From the NCBI GenBank assembly GCA_025965975.1, contig JAOPVX010000409.1, positions 1-55,196 on the forward strand: a stretch of 55,196 bases of DNA, given 5' to 3'. Positions 1 to 46,170 of this stretch are shown in pieces. Both the position numbers and the translations under genes were made by a program. Every line of letters begins with the position of its first letter. Position 1 is the first letter of the stretch. The DNA is from Mycobacterium sp. (lineage in GTDB: Bacteria > Actinomycetota > Actinomycetes > Mycobacteriales > Mycobacteriaceae). Under the pieces are notes generated by a model. It had not been told where the DNA came from, made no database searches, and worked only from the letters and a program-made list of their open reading frames with translations.

Positions 1-1805
1 CGAACACGCGGGGTCAGCACCTCGCCTACCGGTTTCTGGACTTCTCGACCGAGCGTGACGGCGTCTACCAGGACCTGACCTGGTCACAGTTCAGCACCCG
101 CAACCGCGCCGTCGGCGCCCGTCTGCAGCAGGTCACCGAACCCGGTGACCGCGTGGCCATCCTTGCGCCGCAGAACCTCGACTACATGGTGGCCTTCTAC
201 GGCGCCCTGTACTCCGGTCGGATCGCGGTGCCGCTGTTCGATCCCGCCGAGCCTGGCCACGTCGGCCGCCTGCACTCGGTGCTCGACGACTGCTCGCCGT
301 CGGCGATCCTGACCACCACGGACTCCGCCGAAGGTGTCCGCAAGTTCTTCCGGAACCGCCCCGCCAGGGAACGTCCGCGCGTGATCGCGGTCGACGCCAT
401 TCCCAACGAGGTCGGCTCCACCTGGGAGACCGTTCCGGTCACCTCCGAGACCATCGCCTACCTGCAGTACACCTCCGGCTCCACCCGTGCCCCGGCCGGC
501 GTGCAGATCACGCACCTCGGCGTGGCCACCAACTTGGTCCAGCTGATCACCGCACTGCAGGTCGAGGAGGGCCAGCGCGGCGTCACCTGGCTGCCGCTGT
601 TCCACGACATGGGCCTGATCACCGCAATGGTGCCGTCCGTCGTCGGGCGGTACATCACGATCATGACGCCGACCGCATTCGTGCGCCGGCCCATCCGATG
701 GATGCGTGAGCTGGCGGTTCACGGCGACGACCGCGGACCGAGCTTCTCGGCCGCACCGAACTTCGCGTTCGAGCACGCCGCGCTGCGTGGCCTGCCGAAG
801 GAGGGCGAGCCGGAGCTCGATCTCTCCAACGTGCTGGCCCTGCTCAACGGCAGCGAGCCGATCTCGACCGCGTCGATGCGCAAGTTCAACGAGGCCTTCG
901 CCCCGTACGGGTTGCCGACTTCGGCGATCAAGCCGTCCTACGGCATGGCCGAGGCGACGCTGTTCGTCTCGACGACCGATATGAAGGAAGAGGCGTTGAC
1001 GATCCACGTGGATCGCGAGGAACTCAACGCCGGCCGCTTCGTCAAGGTCGACGCCGATTCGCCGACGGCCGTCCCGCAGGTGGCGTGCGGCGTCATCTCC
1101 ATAGACCAGTGGGCCACCATCGTGGACACCGAAACCGCCACCGAACTGCCCGACGGTCAGGTCGGTGAGATCTGGCTGCACGGCGGCAACATCGGATCCG
1201 GCTACTGGGGTCGCGACCAGGAGACGCACGACACCTTCCGCAATATCCTCAAGTCGCGGGCCAACCCCTCACACGCCGAGGGCGTGCCCGACGACGGCGT
1301 GTGGATGCGCACCGGCGACTACGGCACCTTCTTCGAAGGCGAGCTCTACGTGACCGGCCGCGTCAAGGACCTTGTCATCGTCGACGGCCGCAACCACTAC
1401 CCGCAGGACCTGGAGTACTCGGCCCAGGAAGCCAGCCGTGCGGTGCGCGCCGGCTACGTCGCCGCGTTCTCGGTGCCCGCCAACGAGCTGCCCGCCGCCG
1501 TGTTCGACAACCCGCACTCGGGGCTGAAGTTCGACAGGGAGGACACCTCCGAGCAGCTGGTGATCGTCGGTGAACGCGCCCCCGGTGCACACAAGACGGA
1601 CATCCAGCCGGTCGCCGACGACATCCGGGCCGCCATCGCAGTGCGCCACGGCGTGACGGCGCGCGACGTGCTCCTGGTGCCGGCCGGCTCGATCCCGCGA
1701 ACCTCCAGCGGCAAGATCGGGCACCGCGCCTGCCGCGCCGCCTACATCGACGGCAGCCTGCGCGGCGGGTACGTCCAGGACGCGTACCCCGACCAGGCGG
1801 AATGA
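1..1805 (+). CDS. fadD32: Long-chain fatty-acyl-AMP ligase FadD32 (5' end outside the window)
   Basis: Activates the long meromycolate chain as an acyl-adenylate and loads it onto the N-terminal ACP of Pks13, in the cytoplasm. The reading frame is open from the first bases of the window (frame of base 3), so the N-terminus is missing; about 600 residues are present. Visible features are the AMP-binding P-loop motif [12 protein letters not shown], the YGMAEATLF adenylate motif, the TGD motif (MRTGDYG), and a C-terminal lysine in SSGKIGHR, the catalytic lysine region of adenylating enzymes. It is followed after 60 bp by pks13 and then accD4, the same order as Rv3801c-Rv3800c-Rv3799c in M. tuberculosis. 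The identification follows from family motifs and from this synteny. Confidence 0.96.
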
Positions 1806-1865
1806 CGATCCGACACGACGCGCTGAAGGGGAGCCGGAGTCCGGCTCACGAGGTGAACGCTGAAC

Positions 1866-4800
1866 ATGTCTGACACAGAAGTGGATTCGCAACCGAACGA
1901 GGAGCAGAAGCCGGGCTTCATGCTGGCGCCCGAGCAGCAACGGCGGGCAGAAGCGCAGCGACCGGGGGATCAGCTCAGCACATCCGGCGCCGCACGCACC
2001 GATATGACGGTCGTGGAGATGCGGACCTGGCTGCGCACCTGGGTGGGCAGCGCGACCGGCCAGTCACCCGACTCCATCGACGAATCCACTCCGATGGTCG
2101 AGCTGGGCCTGTCGTCACGCGACGCCGTGGCGATGGCCGCCGACATCGAGGACCTCACCGGCGTCACCCTGTCGGCCACCGTGGCGTTCCAGCACCCGAC
2201 CATCGAGTCGCTGGCCACCCGCATCGTCGAGGGTGAGCCCGAGATCATCGACGACAGCGACGACGCCGACTGGTCGCGACGCACCGGCAGCTACGCGCCG
2301 ACCGACATCGCGATCGTCGGCCTGGCCACCCGGTTCCCGGGGGACATGAACACCCCCGACGAGATGTGGCAGGCGCTGCTCGAGGGCCGCGACGCCATCA
2401 CCGACCTGCCCGAGGGCCGCTGGTCGGAGTTCATGGATGAGCCGCGGCTGGCCGAGCGCATCGCCCAGGCCCGAACGCGGGGCGGCTACCTGAAAGACAT
2501 CAAGGGCTTCGACGCCGAGTTCTTCGCGCTGTCGAAGATGGAAGCCGACAACATCGATCCGCAGCAGCGGATGGCACTGGAGCTGACCTGGGAGGCGCTG
2601 GAGAGCGCCCGCATCCCGGCGTCCAGCCTGCGTGGCGGCAGCGTCGGCGTGTTCATCGGCAGCTCGACGAACGACTACAGCTACCTGGCGATGATGGATC
2701 CGACGACGGCGCACCCCTATGCCATCACCGGGACGGCCAGCTCGATCATCGCCAACCGGGTGTCCTACTTCTACGACTTCCGCGGCCCGTCGGTCGCCGT
2801 GGACACCGCATGCTCGTCGTCGCTGGTGGCCACCCATCAGGGTGTGCAGGCGCTGCGCAGCGGTGACGCCGACGTGGCGATCGTCGGGGGCGTCAACGCG
2901 CTCGTCACTCCCGCGGTCACACTCGGCTTCGACGAGGTCGGCGGCGTGCTGGCCTCCGACGGCCGGATCAAGTCCTTCTCGTCGGATGCCGACGGTTACG
3001 CCCGCTCGGAGGGCGGCGGCATGCTGGTGCTCAAGCGCGTCGAGGACGCCCGGCGCGACGGCGACCAGATCCTGGCGGTGATCGCCGGCAGCGCCGTCAA
3101 CCACGACGGCCGCTCCAACGGCCTGCTGGCCCCGAACCCCGATGCGCAGGCCGACGTGCTGCGCCGTGCCTACAAGGACGCCGGGATCGACCCGCGCACC
3201 GTGGACTACATCGAGGCGCACGGCACCGGCACCATCCTCGGCGACCCGATCGAGGCAGATGCGCTGGGCCGTGTCGTCGGCAGGGGCCGTCCCGCCGACA
3301 AACCGGCGCTACTGGGTGCGGTGAAATCCAATGTGGGACACCTGGAGTCGGCCGCCGGTGCGGCCAGCCTGGCCAAGATGGCATTGGCGCTGAAGCACGA
3401 CAAGCTGCCGCCGTCGATCAACTACACCGGGCCCAACCCCTACATCGACTTCGAGGCGGCGCGGCTGAAAGTGGCGGATACCGTCACCGACTGGCCCCGC
3501 TACAGCGGTCACGCGATCGCGGGAGTCTCCGGCTTCGGCTTCGGCGGTGCCAACGCGCACCTGGTGCTGCGTGAGGTGCTGCCGTCGGATCTTGTTGAGC
3601 CTGAACCGGAACCAGAAAAGGAAGAGGACAAGCAGGCCGATCCCTCAGCGGCCGACGCCGTCTATGTCGGCGGCGTGCGGATGGACGAGTACGGCGAGTT
3701 CATCGACTACGACCAAGACGAGCCCGAACACGCGGTCGCCTCTGACGAAGAGCCTGAACTGCCGGGCCTGACCGACGAGGCCGAGCGGCTGCTCGTCCTC
3801 GCGCGCGAGGAGCTCGAGTCAGAACAGCTGCCCACTCCTGTGGTCCCGCTGGCTGTTTCGGGCTTTCTGACGTCACGCAAGAAGGCCACCGCGGCCGAGC
3901 TTGCCGACTGGATCGACAGCGAACAGGGCCGCGCTTCGTCGCTGGAGTCGATTGGCCGTTCACTGTCGCGGCGCAACCACGGCCGCTCCCGCGCGGTGGT
4001 GCTGGCCCACGACCACGACGAGGCCGTCAAGGGCCTGCGGGCGCTGGCCGACGGCAAGCAGAACCCGAACGTGTTCACCGCCGACGGGCCCGTCACCAAC
4101 GGACCGGTGTGGGTGCTGGCCGGTTTCGGCGCTCAGCACCGCAAGATGGCCAAGAGCCTGTACCTGCGCAACGAGACGTTCGCCGAGTGGATCAACACGG
4201 TCGACTCGCTGGTTCAGGACGAGCTGGGTTACTCGGTACTCGAGCTGATCCTTGACGACTCGGTTGACTACGGCATCGAGACCACGCAGACGGTGATCTT
4301 CGCGATCCAGATCGCGCTCGGTGAGTTACTCAAGGCGCATGGCGCCAAACCCGGTGCGGTGGTGGGTCAGTCACTCGGCGAGGCCGCTGCGGCGTACTTT
4401 GCGGGTGGCCTGTCGCTGGCCGACGCCACTCGCACTATCTGCTCGCGCGCCCACTTGATGGGCGAGGGCGAGGCCATGCTGTTCGGCGAGTACATCCGGC
4501 TGATGGCGCTGGTCGAGTACTCCGCCGACGAGATCGAGACCGTGTTCTCCGACTTCAAAGACCTCGAGGTGTGCGTATACGCCGCGCCGACCCAGACGGT
4601 CATCGGCGGCCCGCCGGAGCAGGTCGACGCGATCATCGCCCGCGCCGAGTCGGAGGGCAAGTTCGCCCGCAAGTTCCAGACCAAGGGTGCCAGCCATACC
4701 TCACAGATGGACCCGCTGCTCGGTGAACTGGCGGCAGAACTGCAGGGCATCGAAGCGCGTCCGCTGACTACGGGCTACTTCTCGACGGTGCACGAGGGCC

Positions 4801-7256
4801 GCCACATCAGGCCGGGCGGCGAGCCGATCCACGATGTGGAGTACTGGAAGAAGGGGCTCCGCCAAAGCGTCCACTTCACCCAGGGCGTTCGCAACGCCGT
4901 CGACAACGGGCACACCACTTTCCTTGAGCTGGCACCCAATCCGGTGGCGCTCATGCAGGTGGGCCTGACCACGGCCGCCGCTGGGCTACACGACGCCCAG
5001 CTGATCGCAACGCTTGCGCGCAAGCAGGACGAGGTCGACTCGATGACGTCGACCATGGCGCAGCTGTTCGTGCACGGTCACGATCTGGACTTCCGCACCC
5101 TGTTTGGTCGCGGTGATTACGCGAACATCCCGCCGACTCGCTTCCGCCGCAAGCCGCACTGGCTGGACGCGAAATTCACCGGCGACAGCTCGGTGATGAT
5201 GCCGGGCAACCACGTCGCCACTCCGGATGGCCGCCACCTATGGGAGTACGCCCCGAAGGGCGAGGCCGATCTTGGAGCGCTGGTGAAAACCGCTGCGGTG
5301 CAGGTTGTTCCGGACGCGAAGTTGACGGCGTTCGAGCAGCGCGCGGTGCCAGGCGAGGGCGCGCGGCTGGTGACGACGCTGACGCGGCACCCCGGCGGGG
5401 CGACGGTGCAGGTGCACGCCCGCATCGACGATTCCTTCACATTGGTGTACGACGCGGTCGTGAGCCGCGGTGGTACAGCCACCGCACTGCCGACCGCCGT
5501 CGCGACCGGAGCCGCCGTCGCGGCGCCTGCGGTAGCCGACGTCCCTGTCGCCGAGGTACCCACCGACGATGCAGAGATCCTGAGCGACAACCTGACCCAG
5601 GGCGCCAATCTCGGCGCCGGCTTTAAGAAGTGGTCGCCGGATTCGGGTGAGACGGTGCACGACCGGCTCGCAGCGATCGTCGGCGGCGCGATGGGTTACG
5701 AGCCCGAGGACCTGCCGTGGGAGGTGCCGCTGATCGAGCTGGGCCTTGACTCGTTGATGGCGGTGCGGATCAAGAACCGCGCCGAGTACGACTTCGACCT
5801 CCCGCCGATTCAACTGACCGCAGTGCGGGACGCGAACCTGTACGCGGTCGAGAAGCTCATCGAGTACGCGATCGAACACCGCGACGAGGTCGAGCAGCTG
5901 CGCGAGCATCAGCAGACGCTGACGCCAGAGGAGATCGCGGCCGAGCAGGCCGCGATGATGGCAGGCACGGCACCGACCGTGACGGACGCACAGGCCGAGC
6001 CGGAAGCAGCTGCGCCGGTGGATATCCCGCCGCCACCGACGGACCCGAGTGGCCCGGGCATCCCGCCGCCGCCGATCGACCCGTCGGGCCCGGCTCCCAC
6101 CCAGTCGCCTGCTGCCATGGCTGCCAAGATGCTGACGCAGGAGGCCGTGACCGATGCGCTGGGCGCCGACGTGCCGCCCCGCGAAGCCGCGGAGCGCGTG
6201 ACGTTCGCGACGTGGGCAATCGTCACCGGCAAGTCGCCCGGCGGCATCTTCAACGCGCTGCCCGCGCTCGATGACGGGACCGCCGAGAAGATGGCGCAGC
6301 GTCTTTCGGAACGCGTCGATGGCACCGTCACCGCCGAGGACGTCAAGCACGCCACGACCATCGAAGCGCTGGCGACCGTCGTGCGCGAGCACCTTGAGGC
6401 CGGCGAGATCGACGGATTCGTACGGACACTGCGAGCGCCGAGACAAGACCAAGCGGGCTCCTCGAAAATTCCCGTGTTCGTGTTCCACCCGGCGGGTGGC
6501 TCCACCGTGGTGTACGAGCCACTGCTCAACCGGCTGCCACCGGACACCCCGATGTACGGCATCGAGCGGGTCGAGGGCTCCATTCAGGAGCGCGCCGCCG
6601 AGTATGTGCCGAAGCTGCTGGAGATGGGCGGCAACGGGCCGTTCATCCTGGCGGGGTGGTCGCTGGGCGGCGTGCTCGCCTACGCCTGCGCGATCGGGCT
6701 GAAGCGTGCAGGCGCCGATGTGCGGTTCGTCGGGCTGATCGACGCGGTGCGCGCCGGGGAAGAGGTTCCGCAGACGAAGGAGGAGACCCGCGCCCGCTGG
6801 GACCGCTACGCCCGCTTCGCCGAGCGGACGTTCAACGTCGAGGTCCCGCCGATCCCGTACGAGCAGCTCGAGAACCTCGATGACGAGGGCCAGGTGCAGT
6901 TCGTGCTGGACGCGGTAAGCCAGAGCGGTGTGTCCATTCCCGGCGGAATCGTCGAGCACCAGCGCACGTCCTACCTCGACAACCGGGTCATCGACACCGC
7001 GAAGATCGAGTCATACGACGGACACGTGACGCTCTACATGGCCGACCGCTACCACGACGACGCGATCTTCTTCGAGCCGCGCTACGCCATCCGCAAACCC
7101 GACGGCGGCTGGGGCGAATTCGTCTCCGAACTGGAGGTCGTGCCCATCGGGGGCGAGCACATCCAGGCGATCGACGAGCCGTACATTGCGAAGGTCGGCG
7201 CCCACATGAGCGAGGCGATCGATCGCATCGAAGCCGAGGAGAAGCAGGCCAAGTGA
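1866..7256 (+). CDS. pks13: Polyketide synthase Pks13, mycolic acid condensase
   Basis: Performs the final Claisen-type condensation joining the meromycoloyl chain to a carboxylated C24-C26 chain. 1796 residues with the expected order: N-terminal ACP (phosphopantetheine Ser84 in LGLSSRDAV), ketosynthase (Cys316 in DTACSSSL), acyltransferase (Ser836 in GQSLGEA), second ACP (Ser1296 in LGLDSLMAV), and thioesterase (Ser1599 in AGWSLGG), which also transfers the product to trehalose in the known enzyme. Compared with the M. tuberculosis protein as recalled, it has about 29 extra N-terminal residues and a proline-rich ACP-to-TE linker with an imperfect repeat ([12 protein letters not shown], then [12 protein letters not shown], around 6025-6095). 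A GAGGTGA ribosome-binding sequence lies upstream of the ATG. The stop overlaps the accD4 GTG by 4 nt, indicating translational coupling. Confidence 0.98.
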
Positions 7257-8827
7257 CCGCAGGATCCTCTCCCGCCCACCACCCGACCACTACCGCTGAA
7301 AAGCTGGCCGAACTCCGCGAGCAGCTCGAGCTGGCCAAGGAGCCCGGCGGTGAGAAGGCCGTCGCCAAGCGGGAGAAGAAGGGCATCCCAAGCGCCCGCG
7401 CACGCATCAATGCGCTGGTCGACCCTGGCAGCTTCCTGGAGATCGGCGCGCTGTGCAAAACGCCGGGCGATCCCGACGCGCTGTTCGGCGACGGCGTGGT
7501 CACCGGGCACGGCACCATCAACGGCAGGCCGGTCGGTGTCTTCAGCCACGATCAGACGGTGTTCCAGGGCTCGGTCGGCGAGATGTTCGGCCGCAAGGTC
7601 GCCCGCCTGATGGAGTGGGTGGCGATGGTCGGCTGCCCGATCATCGGAATCAACGACTCGGCCGGGGCCCGGATCCAGGACGCGGTGACCTCGCTCGCGT
7701 GGTACGCCGAACTTGGCCGCCGCCACGAGCTGCTGCGCGGCCTGGTCCCGGAGGTCTCCATCATCCTCGGCAAATGCGCTGGCGGAGCTGTGTATTCGCC
7801 GATCCAGACCGACCTGGTGGTGGCGGTGCGCGACCAGGGCTATATGTTCGTCACCGGCCCCGATGTCATCAAGGACGTCACGGGTGAGGATGTCAGCCTC
7901 GACGAGCTCGGTGGCGCCGACGCGCAGGCCAGCTTCGGCAACATCCACCAGGTGGTCGAGGACGAGGCAGCGGCGTTCGCCTATGCCCGCGACTACTTGA
8001 GCTTTTTGCCGCCCAACACATTTGAGGACGCGCCGATCGTCAACCCCGGCCTGGAACCGGAGATCACCCCGCACGACTACGAACTCGATTCGATCGTTCC
8101 GGACAGCGACAACATGGCCTATGACATGCACGAGATCCTGCTGCGGATGTTCGACGATGGCGACGTCTTCGATGTGGCCCAACAGCAGGGGCAGGCGATG
8201 ATTACCGCCTTCGCGCGCGTCGACGGGCGGCCGGTCGGCGTGCTTGCGAACCAGCCGATGCACTTGTCGGGTGCGATCGACAACGCGGCGTCCGACAAGG
8301 CGGCACGGTTCATCAGGTTCTGCGACTCCTACAACCTCCCACTGGTTTTCGTGGTCGACACCCCGGGGTTCATGCCAGGCGTCGAGCAGGAGAAGGGCGG
8401 AATAATCAAGCGCGGCGGCCGGTTCCTCAACGCCGTTGTCGAGGCCGACGTGCCGAAGGTGACGATCACCATCCGCAAGTCCTACGGCGGTGCGTACGCG
8501 GTGATGGGCTCCAAGCAGCTGTCCGCCGACCTGAACTTCGCCTGGCCGACCGCGCGGATCGCAGTGATCGGCGCAGAAGGTGCGGCCCAGCTGCTGGTGA
8601 AGCGGTTCCCGGATCCCACCGCGCCGGAGGTGCAGAAGATCCGCGCCGACTTCATCGAGGGCTACAACCTCAACATGGCGACCCCGTGGATCGCCGCCGA
8701 GCGCGGCTTCATCGACGCGGTGATCCAGCCGCACGAAACACGGCTGTTGCTGCGCAAGTCCATGCGGTTGCTGCGCGACAAGCAGATCGCGCGGGTGCAG
8801 CGCAAGCACGGCCTCACCCCGATCTAA
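7253..8827 (+). CDS. accD4: Acyl-CoA carboxylase carboxyltransferase subunit AccD4
   Basis: Carboxyltransferase (beta) subunit that, with a biotinylated AccA3 subunit encoded elsewhere, carboxylates the C24-C26 acyl-CoA used by Pks13 as extender. 524 residues, close to the known length of AccD4. Typical carboxyltransferase sequences are present, including [12 protein letters not shown] in the N-terminal half and the oxyanion-hole regions [10 protein letters not shown] and [14 protein letters not shown]. The GTG start overlaps the pks13 stop (GTGA). The position third in fadD32-pks13-accD4 matches the conserved mycolate operon and separates it from other AccD paralogues. Confidence 0.96.
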
Positions 8828-8867
8828 ATCCCGCTCAGGCTTCAATCAGGCGAGGGTAAGGACCAGC

Positions 8868-9476
8868 ATGAGGAAGATCAGCGCGGGCATGTTCGTCGCC
8901 CTCGACGGGGTTGTGGAGGCGCCCGACCAGTGGCACTTCCCGTACTTCAACGACGAGATGGGTCAGGCGGTCGACGCGCAGCTCGGAGCCGCCGACACGA
9001 TACTGCTCGGCCGCAAGACGTATGACAGCTTCGCGGGGGCGTGGCCGGATCGGGAGGCCGAAGGCGGGGAGGACGCCGACTTCGCCAAGAAGCTCGGCGA
9101 CGCCCGCAAGATCGTCGTGTCGAACCAGAACCTCGACTTCACCTGGCGAAACTCGGAGCAGCTCAAGGGTGACCTGGTCGACGCGGTCACCGCACTGAAG
9201 CGCGAGCCCGGCGGCGACATCGGGATGAGCGGGTCGGTGTCGGTGGTGCGCCAGCTGCTGTCCGCGGGCCTGTGCGACGAGTTGCACCTGCTGCTGCACC
9301 CGATTGCGGTCCGCAAGGGAATGCGGCTGTTCGACGACGGCGAGACCATTCCGCTGAAGCTGCTGTCCTCGCGGGCGTTCGAGACCGGCGTGCTCCATCT
9401 GGTCTATACACGAGACGACTCTGTCCGCACCGGAGGCTACGAGCAGGCCAAGGCGCATCTGCCGCAGGATTCCTGA
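8868..9476 (+). CDS. Dihydrofolate reductase / RibD C-terminal domain family protein
   Basis: 202 residues. The start MRKISAGMFVALDGVVEAP and the later ILLGRKTYDSFA and GDIGMSGSVSVVRQLL segments are typical of the RibD C-terminal / DHFR-like fold, an NADPH-binding reductase fold. Many actinobacterial members of this group have no known substrate, and this one has no riboflavin or folate genes nearby, so a specific reaction cannot be assigned. An AAGGA ribosome-binding sequence precedes the ATG. It lies 40 bp after accD4 on the same strand and could be read through from that operon. A second, distinct member of the family lies at 46430. Confidence 0.85.
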   Translation: MRKISAGMFVALDGVVEAPDQWHFPYFNDEMGQAVDAQLGAADTILLGRKTYDSFAGAWPDREAEGGEDADFAKKLGDARKIVVSNQNLDFTWRNSEQLKGDLVDAVTALKREPGGDIGMSGSVSVVRQLLSAGLCDELHLLLHPIAVRKGMRLFDDGETIPLKLLSSRAFETGVLHLVYTRDDSVRTGGYEQAKAHLPQDS

Positions 9477-9510
9477 CTCTGCAGTGCTAGGGCAGGGCTC
9501 GTAGCCGAAC

Positions 9511-9525
9511 TATAGGATGCGCCCA
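9511..9525 (+). promoter_or_regulatory. Putative -10 element for a leaderless kinase transcript
   Basis: TATAGGAT at 9511-9518 contains the TANNNT hexamer TAGGAT (9513-9518), which ends 6 nt before the ATG at 9525. This is the geometry expected when transcription starts at or next to the start codon. No Shine-Dalgarno sequence is visible. Confidence 0.45.
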
Positions 9526-10904
9526 TGCCGCTAGCGGACGGCCAGGTGATCGCCGGGTACACCATCCTGCGATCTCTGGGTGCTGGTGGGATGGGTGAGG
9601 TCTACCTGGCCCAGCATCCCCGCCTGCCGCGACGCGACGCGCTCAAGGTGCTGTCGGCGCCGGTGTGTGCCGAAAGCGAATACAGGCAACGGTTCAACCG
9701 GGAAGCCGACATCGTGGCCACGCTGTGGCACCCGCACATCGTCGAGGTACATGACCGCGGCGACTTCGAGGGCCAGCTGTGGATTGCGATGGATTACGTC
9801 GAAGGCAACGACGCCGCCAGGCTGCTCGCTGAGAGCTATCCCGACGGCATGCCTCCCTACGAGGTTATCCGCATCGTGACGGCCATCGGCGAAGCGCTCG
9901 ATTACGCACATCAACGCGGCCTGATGCACCGCGACGTCAAACCCGCGAACATCCTGCTCGCCAACACCGGCACCGAGGACGAACGCATCATGCTGGCCGA
10001 CTTCGGTATTGCGCGGAAAAGCGGTGAAGCGAGCACGTTGACGGGAACGAACATGACCATCGGCACCGTCGCATACGCCGCGCCCGAACAGCTCAAGGGT
10101 GAGGAGATCGACGGGCGCGCCGACCAGTACGCCCTGGCCGCGACGGCATTTCAGCTGCTGACGGGATCACCCCCGTTTAAGAATTCCAACCCCGCAGTGG
10201 TCATCAGCCAGCACCTGACGTCCGATCCACCGAAGATCGGCGCGCTACGCCCCGAATTGTCCGGACTGGGGCCGGTTTTCGACAAGGCGCTCGCGAAGGA
10301 CCGCGAGGATCGCTACGACCGGTGCATCGACTTCGCCCGTGCGCTCGCCCACCGGATCGGGACGCCAGGGGCGGACGTCGACGTCGGCGCAACCATGTTG
10401 GCGCCCGCTGCCACCGGCCCGCGACACGCCAAGGCGGAGGCAAAGCCGAGGCGGCGCATGGTCGTTGTCACGGTCACGTTGGCCGTGATCGCGGTGGCCG
10501 CCATCGCCTTCGTGCTGTTCGACCGCACCCGCGGTCACCAGGCCGAGGCCAAACCGCGCCAGTCATCCGCGCCGACCGCGTCGTCGGCCCCGGCGTCGCA
10601 GGGAACGGTCGCCCTGCCGGTGGTTGTCGTCGGCGCGAACTGCGCAACGCTTGGCGCCGCAGGCATCACCGCAGCCGGCGCACCGGCGTACTGCGCGCAC
10701 CTGTCGACGACCAACGCCACGATCTGGTCGGTGTACCCTGGCGAAATCTCCAGTCCGACAATCACACCAGGGCCCAACGATCAGCTGTATCCATCGCAGA
10801 CGGAGTCACCGGTTCTGGTGTGCATGGAGCAGACCGGCCAGAGCAGGTTGAACTGCCATGACGACATCCTGCAGGGCAACGCGCCGGCCACGCCGTCGCC
10901 GTAG
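9525..10904 (+). CDS. Transmembrane serine/threonine protein kinase (PknB-type fold)
   Basis: 459 residues. The cytoplasmic kinase domain (about 1-285) shows the glycine loop LGAGGMGEVY (18-27), Lys41, HRDVKPAN (135-142, catalytic Asp137), DFG (159-161), a Thr-rich activation loop and APE (186-188). A juxtamembrane Lys/Arg-rich segment precedes a single membrane helix at about 312-334. The external domain of about 125 residues has four cysteines, possibly two disulfides, and matches no sensor domain (PASTA, NHL) that I recognise. It points towards embB, ending convergently with the metallo-hydrolase gene. In M. tuberculosis the PknH-EmbR pair controls embCAB, so a role in envelope regulation is plausible, but that is inference from position only. 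Confidence 0.93.
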   Translation: MPLADGQVIAGYTILRSLGAGGMGEVYLAQHPRLPRRDALKVLSAPVCAESEYRQRFNREADIVATLWHPHIVEVHDRGDFEGQLWIAMDYVEGNDAARLLAESYPDGMPPYEVIRIVTAIGEALDYAHQRGLMHRDVKPANILLANTGTEDERIMLADFGIARKSGEASTLTGTNMTIGTVAYAAPEQLKGEEIDGRADQYALAATAFQLLTGSPPFKNSNPAVVISQHLTSDPPKIGALRPELSGLGPVFDKALAKDREDRYDRCIDFARALAHRIGTPGADVDVGATMLAPAATGPRHAKAEAKPRRRMVVVTVTLAVIAVAAIAFVLFDRTRGHQAEAKPRQSSAPTASSAPASQGTVALPVVVVGANCATLGAAGITAAGAPAYCAHLSTTNATIWSVYPGEISSPTITPGPNDQLYPSQTESPVLVCMEQTGQSRLNCHDDILQGNAPATPSP

Positions 10905-39112: not shown

Positions 39113-39199
39113 GGTGGCGTGGCAGAGCGGCCTAACGCACTCGCCTTGAAAGCGAGAGACGGCTAAAACCGTCCGGGGGTTCAAATCCCTCCGCCACCG
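39113..39199 (+). tRNA. tRNA-Ser (anticodon TGA)
   Basis: Class II tRNA of 87 nt. The acceptor arms GGTGGCG (39113-39119) and CGCCACC (39192-39198) pair, with discriminator G. The anticodon loop CTTGAAA in the stem CTCGC/GCGAG gives anticodon TGA. A long variable arm (GACGGCTAAAACCGTC) and the T-loop GGTTCAAATCC are present. CCA is not encoded. Confidence 0.97.
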
Positions 39200-39562
39200 C
39201 TCTGTGATGTCTCAAGACATCGGAATAGTCGGAACCCGCGCTTTGCTTGGGTCTTGCCGCGCCTGCGGCGGGGACTTCTCGGTATGGCGTAATCACGATG
39301 AAACAGGCACTGAACATTGGTGACCCTGATTCATAGTCAACTGGTCCAAACAGATCTGGGTTTTCGGACGGAGGGTGACGATGATCCGCATTCGCCGAGT
39401 CATGGGACATCTCACTGGACGGCCGTGAGTACACCTTCCACATTCGGCAGGGCGTGAAGGTCCACATGTGGGACAGAACTGCCCGCGGCATTCGGCAAGG
39501 CCCGCCGGTCAGATCGGTTCGTCTGGAAATTCGCACTGTGCGCACCAAACCTAGGAGATCCC
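39200..39562. other. 363-bp gene-free stretch after tRNA-Ser with a palindrome; possible mobile-element scar
   Basis: No convincing gene: all frames are interrupted or lack recognisable protein. Seven bases after the tRNA is GATGTCTCAAGACATC (39206-39221), whose arms GATGTCT and AGACATC pair perfectly around CA. TGTCTCAAGACATCG-type sequences occur at ends of some actinobacterial insertion sequences, so a decayed element is possible but unproven. The stretch ends with the ribosome-binding sequence AGGAGA (39553-39558) of the next gene. Confidence 0.4.
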
Positions 39563-39760
39563 ATGCCGGATAGTGAATTCCTGCCCCCCGAAGCCCAGGT
39601 GGCCGCCGCGTTCGAGTACGCCGGGCTGACCATCTCGCCAGAGCGTCTCGCGGCGAACTACGAAATCTACTCATCGACGCTCGCGCTGATCCGTAAGGCC
39701 TCGACGCCAGGCCTGGGCGAGACGGTCCCGGCCGTCGGCTTCAAGGCGTCCTGGGACTGA
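39563..39760 (+). CDS. Small AtzG-like (DUF4089-type) amidase partner protein
   Basis: 65 residues. It has the pattern of the small AtzG-like proteins, two helices with [20 protein letters not shown], that pair with an amidase-signature enzyme. In cyanuric acid degradation AtzG forms a complex with the 1-carboxybiuret hydrolase AtzE. It lies 18 bp upstream of an amidase gene, as atzG lies beside atzE. An AGGAGA ribosome-binding sequence precedes the ATG. The name is from size, context and general resemblance; the family membership needs a profile search. Confidence 0.6.
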
Positions 39761-39778
39761 ACGTAAAGGAATACCGCG

Positions 39779-41185
39779 ATGGAACTGTACGAACTTCCCA
39801 TGATCGAGGTCTCGGAGAAGATCCGCACCAAGGAGGTGTCCCCGGTCGAGGTCACCCAATCGTCGCTCGCACGCCTGGAGCAGGTCGAACCTACGCTCAC
39901 CGCATTCGCCACGACCACACCGGAACTCGCGCTCGAACAGGCCAAGATCGCCGAGAAGGAGATCAGCGACGGCAATTACCGGAGCCCGCTGCACGGTGTT
40001 CCGCTCGCAGTCAAGGATCTCTACGACACTGCCGGAGTCAGGACGACGTCCAGCTCCGCGCAGCGGGCCGACCACGTGCCGGATACCGATTCGGTGTCCG
40101 TCGCGAAGCTGTACGCGGCAGGGATGGTCCTTATCGGTAAGACCCATACCCACGAATTCGCCTACGGCGCAACCACTCCCACCACGGGCAACCCCTGGGC
40201 GCCGGACCGCACACCAGGCGGATCCAGCGGCGGTTCTGGAGCTGCGGTAGCCAGCGGCGTCGTGCACGTCGCTCTCGGCAGCGATACCGGCGGATCCATC
40301 CGCATCCCGGCCGCGCTGTGTGGCACCGTCGGCCTCAAGCCGACCTTCGGCCGCGCCTCTCGCGTCGGAGTCGCGTCGCTGTCGTGGTCTCTCGACCATG
40401 TGGGACCGCTCAGCCGCAGCGTGGTCGATTCGGCGCTGGTGATGGCTGCGATGTCTGGCTACGACCGCACCGACCCGGGCACCGTCGAAGTGCCGGTGCC
40501 GGACATGGTGACCGGGATCGACGCTGGCGTGGCGGGGAAGAAGATCGGTATCCCAGTCAACTACTACACCGAACACGTTGCCACCGAGGCGGCACAAGCG
40601 GCCGAGACCGCCGCCGCGACGCTCCAGGCGCTCGGCGCCGATCTGGTCGAGGTAAAGATCCCGATGGCCGAACACATCATCTCGACCGAGTGGGCGATCA
40701 TGATGCCGGAGGCGACCGCGTACCACATGGACTACCTCCGCAATTCCCCGGAGAAGTTCACCGACGAGACCCGTACCCTCCTCGAGATCGGCGCAGCAGA
40801 ACTCGCCACGGATTACGTCAACGCGCTGCGCCTGCGGACGCTGATCCAGGCGGCGTGGAAGGAGATGTTCTCCTCAATCGACGTGCTGCTCGCACCCACG
40901 CTCGTCGCTGCGGCGACCCTGCGGTCCGATCCCTTCATCAGGTGGGGGGACGGCACGGTCGAGGGTGCAACCCCTGCTTACGTGCGCCTGTCGGCGCCCG
41001 CCAACGTCACCGGACTGCCGTCCTTGTCGGTTCCGGCGGCCTTCACCGCCGACGGACTTCCGTTGGGGGTGCAGATCATCGGAAAGCCGTTCGCCGAGCC
41101 CGAGATCCTGCGGTTCGGCTATGCGCTGGAGCAAAACACCGACGTGGTCGGCAGGATCGCGCCGGTCGTCGCGAGGGGCGCGTAG
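39779..41185 (+). CDS. Amidase-signature family hydrolase (AtzE/GatA-like)
   Basis: 468 residues. The Ser-cisSer-Lys triad is in place: Lys79 (PLAVKDLYD), Ser149 in GGSSGGSG and nucleophile Ser173 in SDTGGSIRIPAA, with the usual 70 and 24 residue spacings. No C-terminal allophanate-hydrolase domain is present, so it is not an AtzF/DUR1-type enzyme. With the preceding AtzG-like protein it resembles the AtzEG pair. The stop overlaps the ureE GTG by one base, so it is co-translated with urease genes. A carboxamide or ureido substrate that yields urea is a reasonable inference; GatA function is unlikely because gatB and gatC are absent. Confidence 0.88.
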   Translation: MELYELPMIEVSEKIRTKEVSPVEVTQSSLARLEQVEPTLTAFATTTPELALEQAKIAEKEISDGNYRSPLHGVPLAVKDLYDTAGVRTTSSSAQRADHVPDTDSVSVAKLYAAGMVLIGKTHTHEFAYGATTPTTGNPWAPDRTPGGSSGGSGAAVASGVVHVALGSDTGGSIRIPAALCGTVGLKPTFGRASRVGVASLSWSLDHVGPLSRSVVDSALVMAAMSGYDRTDPGTVEVPVPDMVTGIDAGVAGKKIGIPVNYYTEHVATEAAQAAETAAATLQALGADLVEVKIPMAEHIISTEWAIMMPEATAYHMDYLRNSPEKFTDETRTLLEIGAAELATDYVNALRLRTLIQAAWKEMFSSIDVLLAPTLVAAATLRSDPFIRWGDGTVEGATPAYVRLSAPANVTGLPSLSVPAAFTADGLPLGVQIIGKPFAEPEILRFGYALEQNTDVVGRIAPVVARGA

Positions 41186-41664
41186 TGACGACTGCCCGCG
41201 CGGGCCTGCGGATCCTCGAAGGGATCGTCGGGTGGGTGACGGACCAGGAAGTCGCCGACCGTTTGCACGAACTGCGCCATCACCCCTACCTCGAGCATGC
41301 CGTCGAGTACCTCCACCTGGATGTTCACGACCTCGATCGCAAACGGCTGCGCGCGACATCGGATGCGGGCACCGACTACGCCATCGTGCTGCCGCGGGAC
41401 AGCGCACTCGCCGATGGTGCGGTGTTACTGCTAGAACCCGATCGCGCGGTGGTCGTGCGGGCGGGGGCTCCACGGACAATAACGTTGCGGGCCAACGATA
41501 TTGGGGCAGCACTACGCCTCGGCTTCCTCGTCGGACACCTGCATTGGAAAGCCGACCAGCGCGACGAATCCGTCGTGGTTCACCTGGAGGGTCCGGAATC
41601 CGACTACACCTCACGGATCGTCGAGCTGCTCGAGAACGGGCGGGTCGAGTCGCTCGATGACTGA
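41185..41664 (+). CDS. ureE: Urease accessory protein UreE (nickel metallochaperone)
   Basis: 159 residues from the GTG at 41185 (TAGTG overlap with the amidase stop). N-terminal beta domain with DLDRKRLRATSDAGTDYAIVLPR and a ferredoxin-like C-terminal half including IGAALRLGFLVGHLHWKAD, where a His would bind nickel. There is no His-rich tail. UreE delivers Ni2+ to the UreDFG-urease assembly complex. The M. tuberculosis urease operon has no ureE as far as I recall, so this marks a different lineage. Confidence 0.85.
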   Translation: MTTARAGLRILEGIVGWVTDQEVADRLHELRHHPYLEHAVEYLHLDVHDLDRKRLRATSDAGTDYAIVLPRDSALADGAVLLLEPDRAVVVRAGAPRTITLRANDIGAALRLGFLVGHLHWKADQRDESVVVHLEGPESDYTSRIVELLENGRVESLDD

Positions 41665-42316
41665 TCTTGGGCAGCTGCTTGCCGCCATCCGTTTCGGTGA
41701 CAGCGCATTCCCGTCCGGTGGATTCGCCTTCTCCTCGGGGTTGGAGGGCTCGCATCGTGACGGAATGGTGCAGGACGAGGGGGACGTCACTGCCTTCGTC
41801 GCCGAGCAGCTTGAGGGAAATTGGCATCGGCGCGACCGGGTCCTGTTGCGGCGAGCCTGGACCGAGCTGGACCCTTCCGCTGTCGACACTTTCGCCGAGG
41901 CTGTCACGACGATGTCGGTGCTGCGGGAGGCGTCCCGCCGCGCTGGTGCCGCCGCCCTTGCAACGTTCGCTGCAGTGATCGACCCCGGTGTCGTCGACTA
42001 CCGCAGCCGGGTGCTCGCCGGGGCGGCTCCCGGTCACCTTGCGGTGGCCCAGGCGGTCTGTTTCCGTGCCGCGGGCCTCACCCTGGAAACGGCAGAGGCC
42101 GTCGCGGCATGGCAGGTGGTCTCCGGAATTACTGGTGCCGCACTGCGTCTCGGAATCTACGGGCACCTCGGCGCCCAGCGGGTCGTGACGAATATGACCC
42201 CGCTCCTCCTCGATCTGCTGCAACGCCAGCCACCCACCGACCCCGCCGCCTTCACCGCCTACGCCGACATCGCGGCCCAGCGCCACGACGACGGCGTGCG
42301 GTTGTTCGCCAGTTGA
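41657..42316 (+). CDS. ureF: Urease accessory protein UreF
   Basis: 219 residues from the ATG at 41657, overlapping the ureE stop by 8 nt. The all-helical UreF pattern is visible: FGDSAFPSGGFAFSSGLEG at the start, SRRAGAAALATFAA in the middle and LGIYGHLGAQRVVTNMTPLL near the end. UreF binds UreD and recruits UreG during nickel insertion. The in-frame extension upstream to 41501 overlaps ureE and is rejected. Confidence 0.92.
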   Translation: MTDLGQLLAAIRFGDSAFPSGGFAFSSGLEGSHRDGMVQDEGDVTAFVAEQLEGNWHRRDRVLLRRAWTELDPSAVDTFAEAVTTMSVLREASRRAGAAALATFAAVIDPGVVDYRSRVLAGAAPGHLAVAQAVCFRAAGLTLETAEAVAAWQVVSGITGAALRLGIYGHLGAQRVVTNMTPLLLDLLQRQPPTDPAAFTAYADIAAQRHDDGVRLFAS

Positions 42317-42340
42317 CCACCCGTACATGAAGGAGATCGT

Positions 42341-43009
42341 GTGAACCTGACGCCCACCGAGCTCGAGCGGCTTACGGTGTTCAACGCCGCCGAGTTGGCG
42401 CGGCGCAATCTTCGCGAAGGCATCCCGTTGAGCCACCCAGAAGCGGTGGCCCTGCTGGCCGACGAGGTGATGCTCGCGGCGCGCAAGAATATGGCCTACG
42501 ACGAGGTGATCGACCACGCCGCGGCGCTTCTCACGGCCGACCAGTGCGAGCCGGGTGTGCCCGACATGGTGCGCATCGTGACACTGGACGCTCCTTTCCC
42601 TGACGGCACCAAGCTCGTCACGCTGATCGACCCGATCATCTCCGGGGAGAACGATATCCGCCCAGGGGAGATCATCGTCGGCGATGAGCCGATCGAGCTG
42701 TTCGGAGGTGCCGAGCGACTGTCACTGACCGTCGTCAACCGCGGCGACCGGGATGTCCAGGTGCGTAGCCAGTCGCACTTCTTCGAAATCAACCCAGCGC
42801 TCGAGTTCGACCGCCGCGCCGCGTGGGGTCACAAACTGGACGTGGCCTCCGGTGCAGGAGTGCGGTTCGAACCCGGTATACCCGTGGAGGTGAAGTTGGT
42901 TCCGATGGCCGGTAATCGTGTGGCCCAAGGCTTCTCGGGGGTGGTCAACGGACCAATCGATGCAGCCGGTGCCCTCGAAGCGGCGCTTACTGCGCAGCAC
43001 GAAGGCTGA
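42341..43009 (+). CDS. ureAB: Fused urease gamma-beta subunit (UreAB)
   Basis: 222 residues from a GTG, with AAGGAGA 5 nt upstream. Residues 1 to about 100 are the gamma subunit (LTPTELERLTVFNAAELARRN) and residues from about 105 on are the beta subunit (IRPGEIIVGDEPI, HFFEINPALEFDRRAAWG, VRFEPG). In M. tuberculosis UreA and UreB are separate proteins of about 100 residues each. Fused gamma-beta subunits are known in Helicobacter and in some actinobacteria. It assembles with UreC as the urease trimer. Confidence 0.95.
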   Translation: MNLTPTELERLTVFNAAELARRNLREGIPLSHPEAVALLADEVMLAARKNMAYDEVIDHAAALLTADQCEPGVPDMVRIVTLDAPFPDGTKLVTLIDPIISGENDIRPGEIIVGDEPIELFGGAERLSLTVVNRGDRDVQVRSQSHFFEINPALEFDRRAAWGHKLDVASGAGVRFEPGIPVEVKLVPMAGNRVAQGFSGVVNGPIDAAGALEAALTAQHEG

Positions 43010-43016
43010 CAGCGCA

Positions 43017-44723
43017 GTGACATCGATCAATCGGCAGTCCTACGCCCGCATGTTCGGCCCCACCAAGGGAGACCGGATCCGCCTCGCCGACTCGGACCTC
43101 TTCGTCGAGGTCGAACGGGATTACACGGTGCCCGGATATGAGCTGCTCGCCGGCGCGGGCAAGTCCGTGCGGGATGGCGAAGGGTACCGCCCGTCCTCGA
43201 AGCCGTCGGACGGCGCCCTGGACTACGTCATCGTGAATGCGGTCATCATCGACGCGGTTGCCGGAATCATCAAGGCGGACATCGGCATCCGTGACGGCAG
43301 AATTGCCGGCATCGGAAAGGCGGGTAACCCGGACACCATGCCCGGTGTCACCGCGGGGTTGGTCGTCGGCACCAGCACGACGCCGATTCCCGCGGAAGGC
43401 ATGATCGTGACTGCCGGGGCGATCGAGACCCACGCGCACCTGATTTCGCCGCAGCAGACCGAGCACGCGCTGTCTACCGGCACCACGACCCTCATCGGTG
43501 GGTCGCTGGGCCCGTCGTTCGAAGTCGCCACCGGAAGCCCCCGCAATCTCGGGATGTTCCTGAAGGCCGGTGAGTACACACCCATGAATTTCGTCGCGTT
43601 CGGCCGCGGCTCCTCCGATCCGGAGGCAGTCTTGGAGTCGGTGGTTGCCGGCGCTGGCGCGGTGAAGATCCACGAAGACTTGGGGGCGTCGCCGGCCGTC
43701 ATCGACAAGACGCTGGAGGCCGCCGATTCCGCCGACTTCGCGGTACACCTGCACACCGACTCGATCAACGAGTTCGGGTTTTCCGAGCGGACGCTGTCGA
43801 CGATCAGGGGTCGGACAATCCACATGTACCACGTGGAAGGCGCCGGCGGAGGACACGCCCCCGACCTGATCAGGTGCGTCGGTTACGAGAACGTCATTCC
43901 TGGCACGACCAACCCGACGAATCCCTACACGGTCGTCGGGCTCGACGAGGGTGTGCCGATGACGATGCTGGCGCACTTGATGAATTGGGAAGCGCCAGAG
44001 GACATCGCGTTCGCCGAAGCTCGGATCCGGCCGCAGACCATGGTCGCCGAGGACTTTCTGCACGACATGGGGGCCATCTCGATCTTCGGCAGCGATACCC
44101 AGGGCATGGGCCGCCTCGCCGAGAACATCACCAACTGCTGGCAGCTCGCTGCGGTGATGAAGCAGCGCATCGGGCGTCTGCCGGACGAGACAACCGGCTT
44201 CGCCGACAACGAACGCGTCAAGCGCTACCTCGCGAAACTCACCATCAACCCTGCCATCTCGATCGGCGCCGACGCACACATCGGCTCCGTCGAGACCGGC
44301 AAGGTGGCCGACCTGGTGATCTGGCAGCCCGCATTCTTCGGTGTCAAACCCAGGGCGGTACTCAAGAACGGGCTGTTCGCGTCGGCGGCACTCGGTGACG
44401 CGGCGGGGTCTATCTCGTCGTCGGAGCCGATCATCCAGCGCCCGAACTGGGGTGCTCTTGGCGACGCGGCCGCCAAACTTGGGTTTCTGTTCATGTCCTC
44501 GCTCGCGATCGATGCGGGCGTGCCGGACAAGCTGGGGCTGCGCAAGAACGTGCTGCCGATCAAGTCGGTGCGCGGGCTTCGCAAGACGGACATGGTGCGC
44601 AACGACGCTCTTCCCCATGTCGAGGTTGATCCCCGTACGTTCGAGGTCCGTGCCGACGGTGAGCTGCTCATCGCCGAACCGGCTGCCACCGTGGCATTTT
44701 CGAGAAAGTACATGCTGCGATGA
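43017..44723 (+). CDS. ureC: Urease alpha subunit UreC, divergent, Ala at the flap Cys319 position
   Basis: 568 residues from the GTG at 43017. All dinickel-centre residues are present, and by chance of length most carry the Klebsiella numbering: His139 and His141 (HAH; 134/136 in Klebsiella), carbamylated Lys217 and His219 (KIHED), His246, His272, Asp360 (GSDTQ), plus catalytic His320 and Arg336. The flap reads MTMLAHLM, so Cys319 is Ala and His321 is Leu; Trp222 is Leu. In Klebsiella a Cys319Ala change leaves considerable activity but removes thiol-reagent sensitivity. The enzyme is therefore probably an active but unusual urease or a related ureido-hydrolase. Confidence 0.93.
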
Positions 44724-45337
44724 CCACTCCCATGAGAGCTGCGCGTATCGGCATCGGTGGGCCGGTCGGGTCCGGCAAGACCGCGATCGTCGAGGCGCTG
44801 CTCGCTGGATTCGCCCGGCGCGGACGCTCGGTCTCGGTGATCACCAACGATCTGGTGACGGCCGAGGACGCCGAGCGGATCCGCCGCTCCGGGCTGATCG
44901 ACCCTCAGCGGGTACGGGCCGTCGAGGCAGGCGGCTGCCCGCACACCGTGATCCGCGAGGACCCGTCACTGAACATCGCCGCCGCCGATGCCCTCGAGGC
45001 CGCCTACCCCGACACCGAGATGATTCTGCTCGAATCCGGTGGTGACAACCTCGCGTCGACGTTCTCGCGGGATCTGGTGGATTACTGGCTTTTCGTGATC
45101 GACGTTGCCGGGGGTGACGACATCCCACGCAAGCGCGGACCGGGTGTGGTGCGGTGCGATCTGCTGGTGGTCAACAAGGTTGATCTCGCGCCGTACGTTC
45201 GCGTCGACCTGACCCTGATGCTGAAGGAAGCCAGCGAGGTGCGCGGCGGCAGACCCGTCGTCGCCACCAACGCCTGCAGCGGCGAGGGGATCGAGGTGCT
45301 GATGGACATGCTCGAACGTGACGTGCTGTTCGTGTGA
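44720..45337 (+). CDS. ureG: Urease accessory GTPase UreG
   Basis: 205 residues, ATG overlapping the ureC stop by 4 nt. SIMIBI-class GTPase with P-loop GPVGSGKT (14-21), the metal-binding Cys-Pro-His motif at 73-75 ([11 protein letters not shown]), [12 protein letters not shown] and the guanine-specificity NKVD. It drives nickel transfer to urease with UreD, UreF and UreE. Confidence 0.96.
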
Positions 45338-46170
45338 GCACCCGCAATGCCCTCGACCTCACGTTCGCCTGTGTCGGCGGACGCACCGCCCTGACCCGGC
45401 GCCGTTACCGGTGGCCACTGCTGATCGGGCGCGTCTTCACCGACCGAACACGGCCAGGCGTTGGCTCGGTGACCATTCAGAACTGTGCCGGCACGGTCAT
45501 TCCCGGCGATGTCGTCAGGCAGCGGATCGCGGTGGTCCACGGCGGGTCTGCAGTGGTCCGTGGCCAGGGTGCCACAATCGTCAGCGGCGTTCGCGGCGGT
45601 GAGACGGCGGTCGAGGACACTCGCCTGCGGGTGGACGCGAGCAGTCGGCTGCTGTTCGACCCCTCGCCGCGCATCCTCACTGCGCACGCGCGCTATCGCC
45701 AGCGCACGCAGGTGTGTGTCGAGCCCGGCGGACGGGCGGTGATCGTCGACGCCGTCGTGCTCCACCCCGACCTGACGGACGAGGCGTTCGGCAGCTACGA
45801 GTCCAGCGTCGCCGTCGCCGCTCCTGACGGAACGCTCCGCGCACTCGATGCGCAGATGCTCGAGACGACGCCGCAGGTCCGCCGGGCCCCGACGGCTTTC
45901 GGGACCGTGTACGTCGTCGGTGACGGGTTCGACACCACGATGGCGGCGCTATCGCCAGACCTCGAATCGCTCAGTGTGCTCACGGGCGACAGGCGTGTGT
46001 ACCTTGCGGTGACCGACCTGCCTAACCATGTTGGATGGGCGGTTCGGATCGCCGGGTCGGATGGCGGAACGTTGCGGGCGACAGTCGCAGCGGTGACCGA
46101 GCTGATCGAGGCGGGAAGCTGTGAGGGGGAGCGGCCAGCTTCGTACTCCTCCGCGGTCCAGCAGAGGTAG
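45334..46170 (+). CDS. ureD: Urease accessory protein UreD
   Basis: 278 residues from a GTG that overlaps the ureG stop by 4 nt. The all-beta UreD pattern is recognisable: [19 protein letters not shown], a [23 protein letters not shown] segment and a C-terminal [11 protein letters not shown] strand region. It is the scaffold that docks UreF-UreG onto urease. Last gene of the cluster. Sequence conservation in this family is low, so the call leans on position after ureG. Confidence 0.86.

Follow-up and report, generated by a model that had tools for sequence, protein, structure and literature searches.

In Pseudomonas sp. ADP, the 1-carboxybiuret hydrolase AtzE-AtzG acts in nitrogen catabolism, and its amidase-signature enzyme is encoded directly after the gene of a 65-70 amino acid (aa) small subunit (PMC6219798). 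Mycobacterium smegmatis has two urease clusters, yet does not grow on urea (PMC4222082). Here we describe a locus that joins a small gene and an amidase gene to a urease cassette, found in a stretch of 55,196 nucleotides (nt) from Mycobacterium sp. (assembly GCA_025965975.1, contig JAOPVX010000409.1, positions 1 to 55,196), called the window below. Our preferred reading, which we consider evenly poised, is that the window holds a truncated copy of a GlnR-controlled nitrogen-starvation operon for scavenging the nitrogen of an amide- or ureido-type compound that the cell imports. A literature search covering few subscription journals returned, in the text it could reach, no paper treating these amidases and the urease as a unit.

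A conserved operon, truncated in the window

Eight open reading frames lie on one strand between 39563 and 46170 (Table 1), just as a sequence-only reading of this DNA had described, and seven of the eight proteins score above the Pfam cut-offs of their expected families, the small protein being the exception. The claim that most junctions overlap is just true: overlaps of 1, 8, 4 and 4 nt mark four of the seven, and gaps of 18, 24 and 7 nt separate the genes at the other three. The TAG stop of the amidase gene (41183-41185) and the GTG start of ureE (41185-41187) have a single base in common and the gene order is kept elsewhere, which bears out the proposal that the amidase belongs to the urease unit.

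The neighbourhood proved to be conserved as well. A UreC search at E<=1e-220 matched 10 of 297 genomes of the genus, the window's own included, and all nine others carry 15 colinear genes in the order LuxR-type regulator, dipeptide-type ATP-binding cassette (ABC) importer (5 genes), amidase 1, small protein, amidase 2 and ureE-F-AB-C-G-D. Four of the nine apparently correspond to contigs L004, L006, L007 and L010; upstream of the L010 cassette, Pfam recognises a GerE/LuxR-type regulator, SBP_bac_5, two BPD_transp_1 permeases, two ABC ATPases and an amidase. From 377 stretches encoding an amidase relative we kept 80 loci, ten of which (L004-L012 and L024) hold the small gene, amidase 2 and the urease cassette in order; the regulator and ABC genes stand upstream in all ten, and amidase 1 in nine (L009 is without it). 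Rhodococcus/Rhodococcoides loci also carry the operon, and Saccharopolyspora does so without amidase 1. A gene order shared by Mycobacterium, Rhodococcus/Rhodococcoides and Saccharopolyspora goes beyond chance, and the genomic link between amidase and urease is well supported. The operon is nevertheless rare and patchy, given that 3 of 397 genomes matched in an order-wide sample (1e-205; the window and G245 again included) and 1 of 396, the window itself, in a phylum-wide sample (1e-190). Genes in these relatives were called with a simple in-house codon-score caller, whose starts may be misplaced. In Saccharopolyspora, an arginase-family gene (L009:1384-2394) lies directly upstream of the operon regulator.

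The window has lost the regulator, amidase 1 and most of the importer, and remnants are left upstream of the small gene. The promoter remnant aligns with the regulator promoters of L004 and L010 at scores of 37 and 30, the best of 300 shuffles scoring 24 in both cases, and its alignment with those of L006 and L007 (27, shuffles 26) covers the box alone; its GlnR-type box is GAAACAGGCACTGAAC. The binding-protein fragment matches L004 at 80% over 25 residues (39391-39465, E 2e-8) with a further 13 residues to 39512, a second comparison gave 69% identity over 39388-39465, and short nucleotide pieces reach 39533. The starvation promoter now lies ~220 nt from the small gene. That the cluster has no transporter, as had been noted earlier, is hence a deletion in this genome and not a property of the system, for both promoter and binding-protein remnants point to the loss. 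We also considered that the transporter or amidase 1 had moved elsewhere in the genome, and rejected it after searching the genome itself (G000, a 93.4% complete draft in 449 contigs): the best binding-protein match reached 33%, with no close copy in the draft, and the best match of amidase 1 (42%) was amidase 2 itself, followed at 38% by GatA on contig C106.

The flanks of the window recur at one locus, L003, from the Mycobacterium metagenome-assembled genome RYN_141 (1-10523), a near relative, which shares the same tRNA-Ser and four of the ten window flanking genes tested; none of 19 other loci shares any of the ten. Among the loci scanned, a tRNA stands next to the cluster in the window and L003 only, and a scan of 16 loci besides L003 gave no clear tRNA, with one ill-defined call inside the L012 amidase. 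The operon copies in the window and in L003 occupy the same site and have been reduced in different ways. Two flanking proteins of the window found no match in PHROGs.

The eight genes that remain in the window are under purifying selection, the ratio of nonsynonymous to synonymous rates (dN/dS) between the window and L010 being 0.11-0.27 across all eight. The synonymous distance between the two is 0.67 for the small gene, 0.47 for the amidase and 0.22-0.37 for the urease genes, and the higher values of the first two hint at recombination.

All 10 of the operons examined have GlnR-type boxes, assigned after the motif in PMC3662644, at 42-142 nt before the regulator, with regulator starts taken from the in-house caller; across the window such boxes occur at 0.07 per 400 nt. 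In M. smegmatis, msmeg_1082-1090 are annotated in a matching sequence as a LuxR regulator, ABC genes of peptide-opine-nickel and dipeptide type, an amidotransferase-like protein, a hypothetical protein and an amidase. Under nitrogen starvation, msmeg_1082 and 1084-1090 were 4.6- to 52-fold higher than in a glnR mutant (PMC4222082 Table 1). The gene msmeg_1082 lies at a GlnR chromatin immunoprecipitation peak (71.9; 277.4, taken here as enrichment and expression change; PMC3662644) and was 7-fold up in continuous culture (PMC4617892). Gel shifts detected no GlnR binding before msmeg_1084 and 1090 (PMC4222082), which fits a single promoter before msmeg_1082.

Table 1. Features of the amidase-urease locus and its upstream remnants in the window.
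Feature	Position	Strand	Basis or remark
tRNA-Ser(tga)	39113-39200	+	ARAGORN
Promoter remnant of the lost LuxR-type regulator, GlnR-type box 39300-39315	39282-39345	+	local alignment
Decayed solute-binding-protein (family 5) gene fragment of the lost ABC importer	39388-39533	+	protein and nucleotide matches
Small protein gene (65 aa)	39563-39760	+	predicted GatC/AtzG-superfamily amidase partner, family profile
Amidase 2 (468 aa)	39779-41185	+	Pfam Amidase, amidase-signature motifs
ureE	41185-41664	+	GTG start; Pfam UreE_N
ureF	41657-42316	+	Pfam UreF
ureAB, gamma and beta fused	42341-43009	+	Pfam Urease_gamma and Urease_beta
ureC, amidase-linked clade	43017-44723	+	GTG start; Pfam Urease_alpha/Amidohydro_1
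ureG	44720-45337	+	Pfam cobW; TIGR00101
ureD	45334-46170	+	Pfam UreD

The amidase, its small partner and the urease

The window amidase is a member of the amidase-signature family (PF01425, 384.4 bits) and contains KDLYD (79), GGSSGG (147) and TGGSIR (from 169), which we take to be the Ser-Ser-Lys catalytic motifs. It scored below both AtzE cut-offs (TIGR02715 and NF006631; 336.5 of 461 and 324.1 of 425.75 bits, respectively) and below the GatA cut-off (TIGR00132; 313.9 of 481.1 bits, 304.8 in a genome-wide scan), and the GatA of this genome, on contig C106, reached 631 bits. A tree of 102 amidases was built by a quick method with Shimodaira-Hasegawa approximate likelihood-ratio (SH-aLRT) support only, from gene calls no shorter than 430 aa and with every second sequence removed from part of the Streptomyces group. 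In it, three GatA proteins formed their own clade and AtzE a separate long branch of unsure placement. Amidase 1, with 16 rows, and amidase 2, with 73, formed two clades, each supported at 99 and joined at 83, and the urease-linked amidase 2 rows, the window and L003 among them, fell into a single clade of 12 (100). The earlier description of the amidase as AtzE-like is not supported in that form: the protein misses the AtzE and GatA cut-offs and falls outside both groups in the tree, where the place of AtzE is unsure. An AtzE-type branch of cyanuric acid breakdown was ruled out on the missed cut-offs and the lack of atzD, atzF and atzH in the cluster. An oxalurate (Hpx) branch was also considered as a possible setting (PMC12625717).

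The 65-aa small protein on its own found no relative in Pfam (E<=1) or NCBIfam, and against PDB a single chance-like match (E 1.2). In 72 of the 80 loci the matched amidase is preceded within 250 nt by a small open reading frame, and in L020, L022 and L028 such a frame lies near another family amidase. From 42 of 78 such frames, after exclusion of 25 of 26 Streptomyces-type frames and 11 near-identical or second copies, we built a family profile; GatC chains made up the top four of its five PDB matches (E 6e-5, 3.5e-4, 3.8e-3 and 0.16), and AtzG of pADP-1 scored 10.3 bits against it in a single comparison. The AtzG-like profile PF13318, which AtzG itself passes (36.2 bits, cut-off 24), matched three of the 42 family members weakly (best 0.0058), the window's not included. 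Searched through G000 at E<=10, PF13318 did not list the window small gene among its matches; sets of 7 and 23 genomes gave weak matches with none above cut-off, and the 14 control genomes among these searches likewise gave none above cut-off. The small protein is thus, on profile evidence, a predicted GatC/AtzG-superfamily partner outside AtzG as Pfam defines it, so that the sequence-only reading is supported as to the kind of protein and not supported as to a match with the AtzG-like profile. At L019:5288-10395, three amidases stand in a row with three adjoining small genes of 60-74 aa, the 60-aa product having no Pfam match.

The window UreC passes the urease profile TIGR01792 (709.9 bits, cut-off 680) and is accompanied by the accessory genes E, F, G and D. 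HAH, KIHED, LHTD, YHVEG and SDTQ, presumably the metal-site motifs, are kept. It has a 4-residue loop deletion after GPS, the flap AHL for CHH, and GMGR for AMGR; the second UreC of the same genome (contig C44, 52% identical; the window is contig C185) has the usual CHH flap. A tree of 45 UreC sequences placed the window in an amidase-linked clade of 17 rows (bootstrap/SH-aLRT 100/100), of which 14 are actinobacterial, two come from Rhizobium plasmids and one from a Pleomorphomonas plasmid, so that the clade covers two phyla. The tree omitted L158 and L180 (which duplicate the L002 gene and the window), sequences no longer than 380 residues, several Mycobacterium/Rhodococcoides copies (e.g. 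L006, L007, L012, L099, L101, L106-L108) and L173-L178 and L181, which the motif filter missed; of L173-L176, re-examined, UreC motifs were visible in L174 and L176. The loop deletion and the missing second flap His occur in 17 of 17 clade rows and Ala for the flap Cys in 15, the Rhizobium rows retaining Cys. With its loop deletion, altered flap and separate clade, the urease is indeed atypical, as had been suspected. GMGR and a 3-residue deletion are also found outside the clade (L152, L179, L182-L184), and the canonical-clade row L164 is without the flap Cys too. We assume that the flap Cys is non-essential and the first flap His catalytic.

L020, L022 and L028 encode a distant UreC, 46-47% identical in the first and last of these loci, that shares the changes seen in the clade, and this atypical urease is situated between amidases of the same family. 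No ureE was recognised in these three loci, where a histone-deacetylase-family gene adjoins the divergent urease; a copper amine oxidase gene is near it in L020. A phylum-wide search for UreC of the L020 type matched 0 of 386 at E 1e-170, a strict limit applied without a positive control. The UreC-like proteins of L173-L176, one actinobacterial family (f29), scored 584-597 bits against the urease cut-off of 680.

Proposed function and rival readings

In the pathway we favour, the importer would carry an amide- or ureido-type compound into the cell, the amidases, predicted Ser-Ser-Lys hydrolases held by the small subunit, would cut amide bonds to yield ammonia and/or urea, and the specialised urease would break down urea, or something closely derived from it, to ammonia and CO2. 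The simplest amidase substrate would be an N-acylurea, because AtzE, AtzF and ureidomalonase act on acylureas. We infer the complex of amidase and small subunit, the direction of flow and the kind of substrate; urea as the metabolic link between amidases and urease is the likeliest reading, with about an even chance of being right.

The importer appears tied to the amidases. L013, L016 and L018 hold importer, amidase 1, small gene and amidase 2 with no urease in the available DNA (L018 ends 0.7 kb after amidase 2; L015, whose contig ends ~310 nt after amidase 2, was not counted), so the importer travels with the amidases rather than with the urease. That it served as a nickel importer for the urease, with the amidases incidental, we consider very improbable, and as main reading it was ruled out on the same loci, where importer and amidases occur together in the absence of urease. 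Family-5 binding proteins do include nickel-binding ones, and such chains match the binding protein (E 6e-33 to 1e-28), but stronger matches, at E 1e-55 to 4e-44, came from YliB and from chains that bind heme or dipeptides.

Related gene contexts extend beyond the Actinomycetota. On a Rhizobium tumorigenes plasmid (L149), a urease of the clade follows a homologous importer (33-46% identical to that of L010), a formamidase-family gene and an asparaginase-domain gene, and three amidases, one of them 42.5% identical to L010 amidase 2, stand divergently beside it with a 66-aa gene. The product of the latter matched no profile and is a possible amidase partner by its size and place alone. On an unannotated R. 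rhododendri plasmid (L151), amidase and UreC matches lie ~11 kb apart. In L029:10491-11973, UreG and two separate UreD pieces, with no UreC recognised, come after a module of importer and amidase genes that runs on the opposite strand; this urease cassette has apparently decayed.

Several observations weigh against the operon as we read it. L003 retains only the small gene and amidase 2, with urease absent. In Kineococcus (L032), importer and urease share one strand, from which the small gene and an amidase outside the urease-linked clade diverge; in Pleomorphomonas L150, a UreC of the same clade is accompanied by a Liv-type transporter and by amidases that are less related. Family amidases adjoin nitrile hydratase genes in L023 and L035 (by Pfam) and in L040 and L048 (by clustering). 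These neighbours and the urease-less L003 mean that the amidase need not make urea, and the amidase family serves several amide-producing routes. The dN/dS values of the window against L010 are slightly above those of L010 against L004 (0.09-0.22) in five of the eight genes, and below them in three. The match of msmeg_1082-1090 to the operon rests on annotation order, not sequence. We take msmeg_1091-1096 to be the second urease of M. smegmatis. In the available part of PMC4222082, msmeg_1091-1096 are absent from the list of genes changed 3-fold by GlnR, which leaves co-induction of the urease unsupported there.

Much of this would also suit a bundle in which amidases and urease free ammonia from different compounds under one GlnR promoter, an explanation we think unlikely while giving it some weight. 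The nitrile hydratase neighbours and the urease-less modules speak for it, as do a related cassette set among general nitrogen genes (L152, with ammonium transporter, glnT and nirB) and the appearance of the upstream part alone in the M. smegmatis GlnR list, so far as that list was available (PMC4222082). Set against these are the overlap of the amidase 2 stop with the ureE start, the replacement of the urt genes of related cassettes by the amidase-linked importer, and a separate UreC clade with altered pocket motifs.

Those motifs could alternatively reflect a shift of substrate, the urease hydrolysing a substituted urea or a related amide released by the amidases rather than free urea, which we regard as improbable. 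It draws on the changes shared across the 17 clade rows and repeated, all three of them, in the distant, amidase-flanked urease of L020, L022 and L028; the kept metal-site motifs and first flap His, the TIGR01792 score, and the occurrence of GMGR, the 3-residue deletion and Cys loss outside the clade argue the other way, and Cys319 mutants of Klebsiella urease are reportedly still active. The fuller form of this idea, in which the amidase-linked UreC would be a nickel enzyme of the urease family for a substituted urea or acylurea fragment and would complete a dedicated pathway of import and hydrolysis, present in Actinomycetota and on Rhizobium plasmids, is likewise a long shot; if true, it would give the urease family a second substrate class. 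The clade also marks residues for testing a changed substrate range.

Under the preferred reading, the operon would tie an orphan, strongly GlnR-induced mycobacterial gene set to a second, unusual urease, and it offers a testable route on which the cell could form urea itself out of a compound that it imports, instead of taking urea up. A urease dedicated to such an internal source would fit the failure of M. smegmatis to grow on urea (PMC4222082).

Comparison with known systems

The GlnR regulon reports, in their available parts, do not describe msmeg_1082-1090 as a unit with urease. AtzE-AtzG shares the gene layout described at the outset and differs in its profiles, the window amidase being below the AtzE cut-offs and its small protein failing PF13318, and in its surroundings: the window cluster is without atzD, atzH and atzF and has a urease in place of the allophanate hydrolase. 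With the GatCAB amidotransferase the locus has in common a GatA-like amidase and a small-protein family whose profile matches GatC (E 6e-5), whereas the amidase is below the GatA cut-off, the genome has its own GatA on C106, and the cluster contains no gatB. The urt-linked cassettes of Aminobacter, Methylobacterium and Acinetobacter plasmids have the same ureE-F-AB-C-G-D order and a fused gamma-beta subunit. Three urease cassettes outside the clade adjoin urea-transporter genes (urtA in L152 and L182, urtB-E in L184), and a fourth (L183) has beside it a gene of the nitrilase family and an ABC importer of branched-chain type. The UreC of the urt-linked plasmid cassettes keep the CHH flap and fall outside the amidase-linked clade, and where these cassettes adjoin urt genes, the operon described here has a dipeptide-type importer and amidases.

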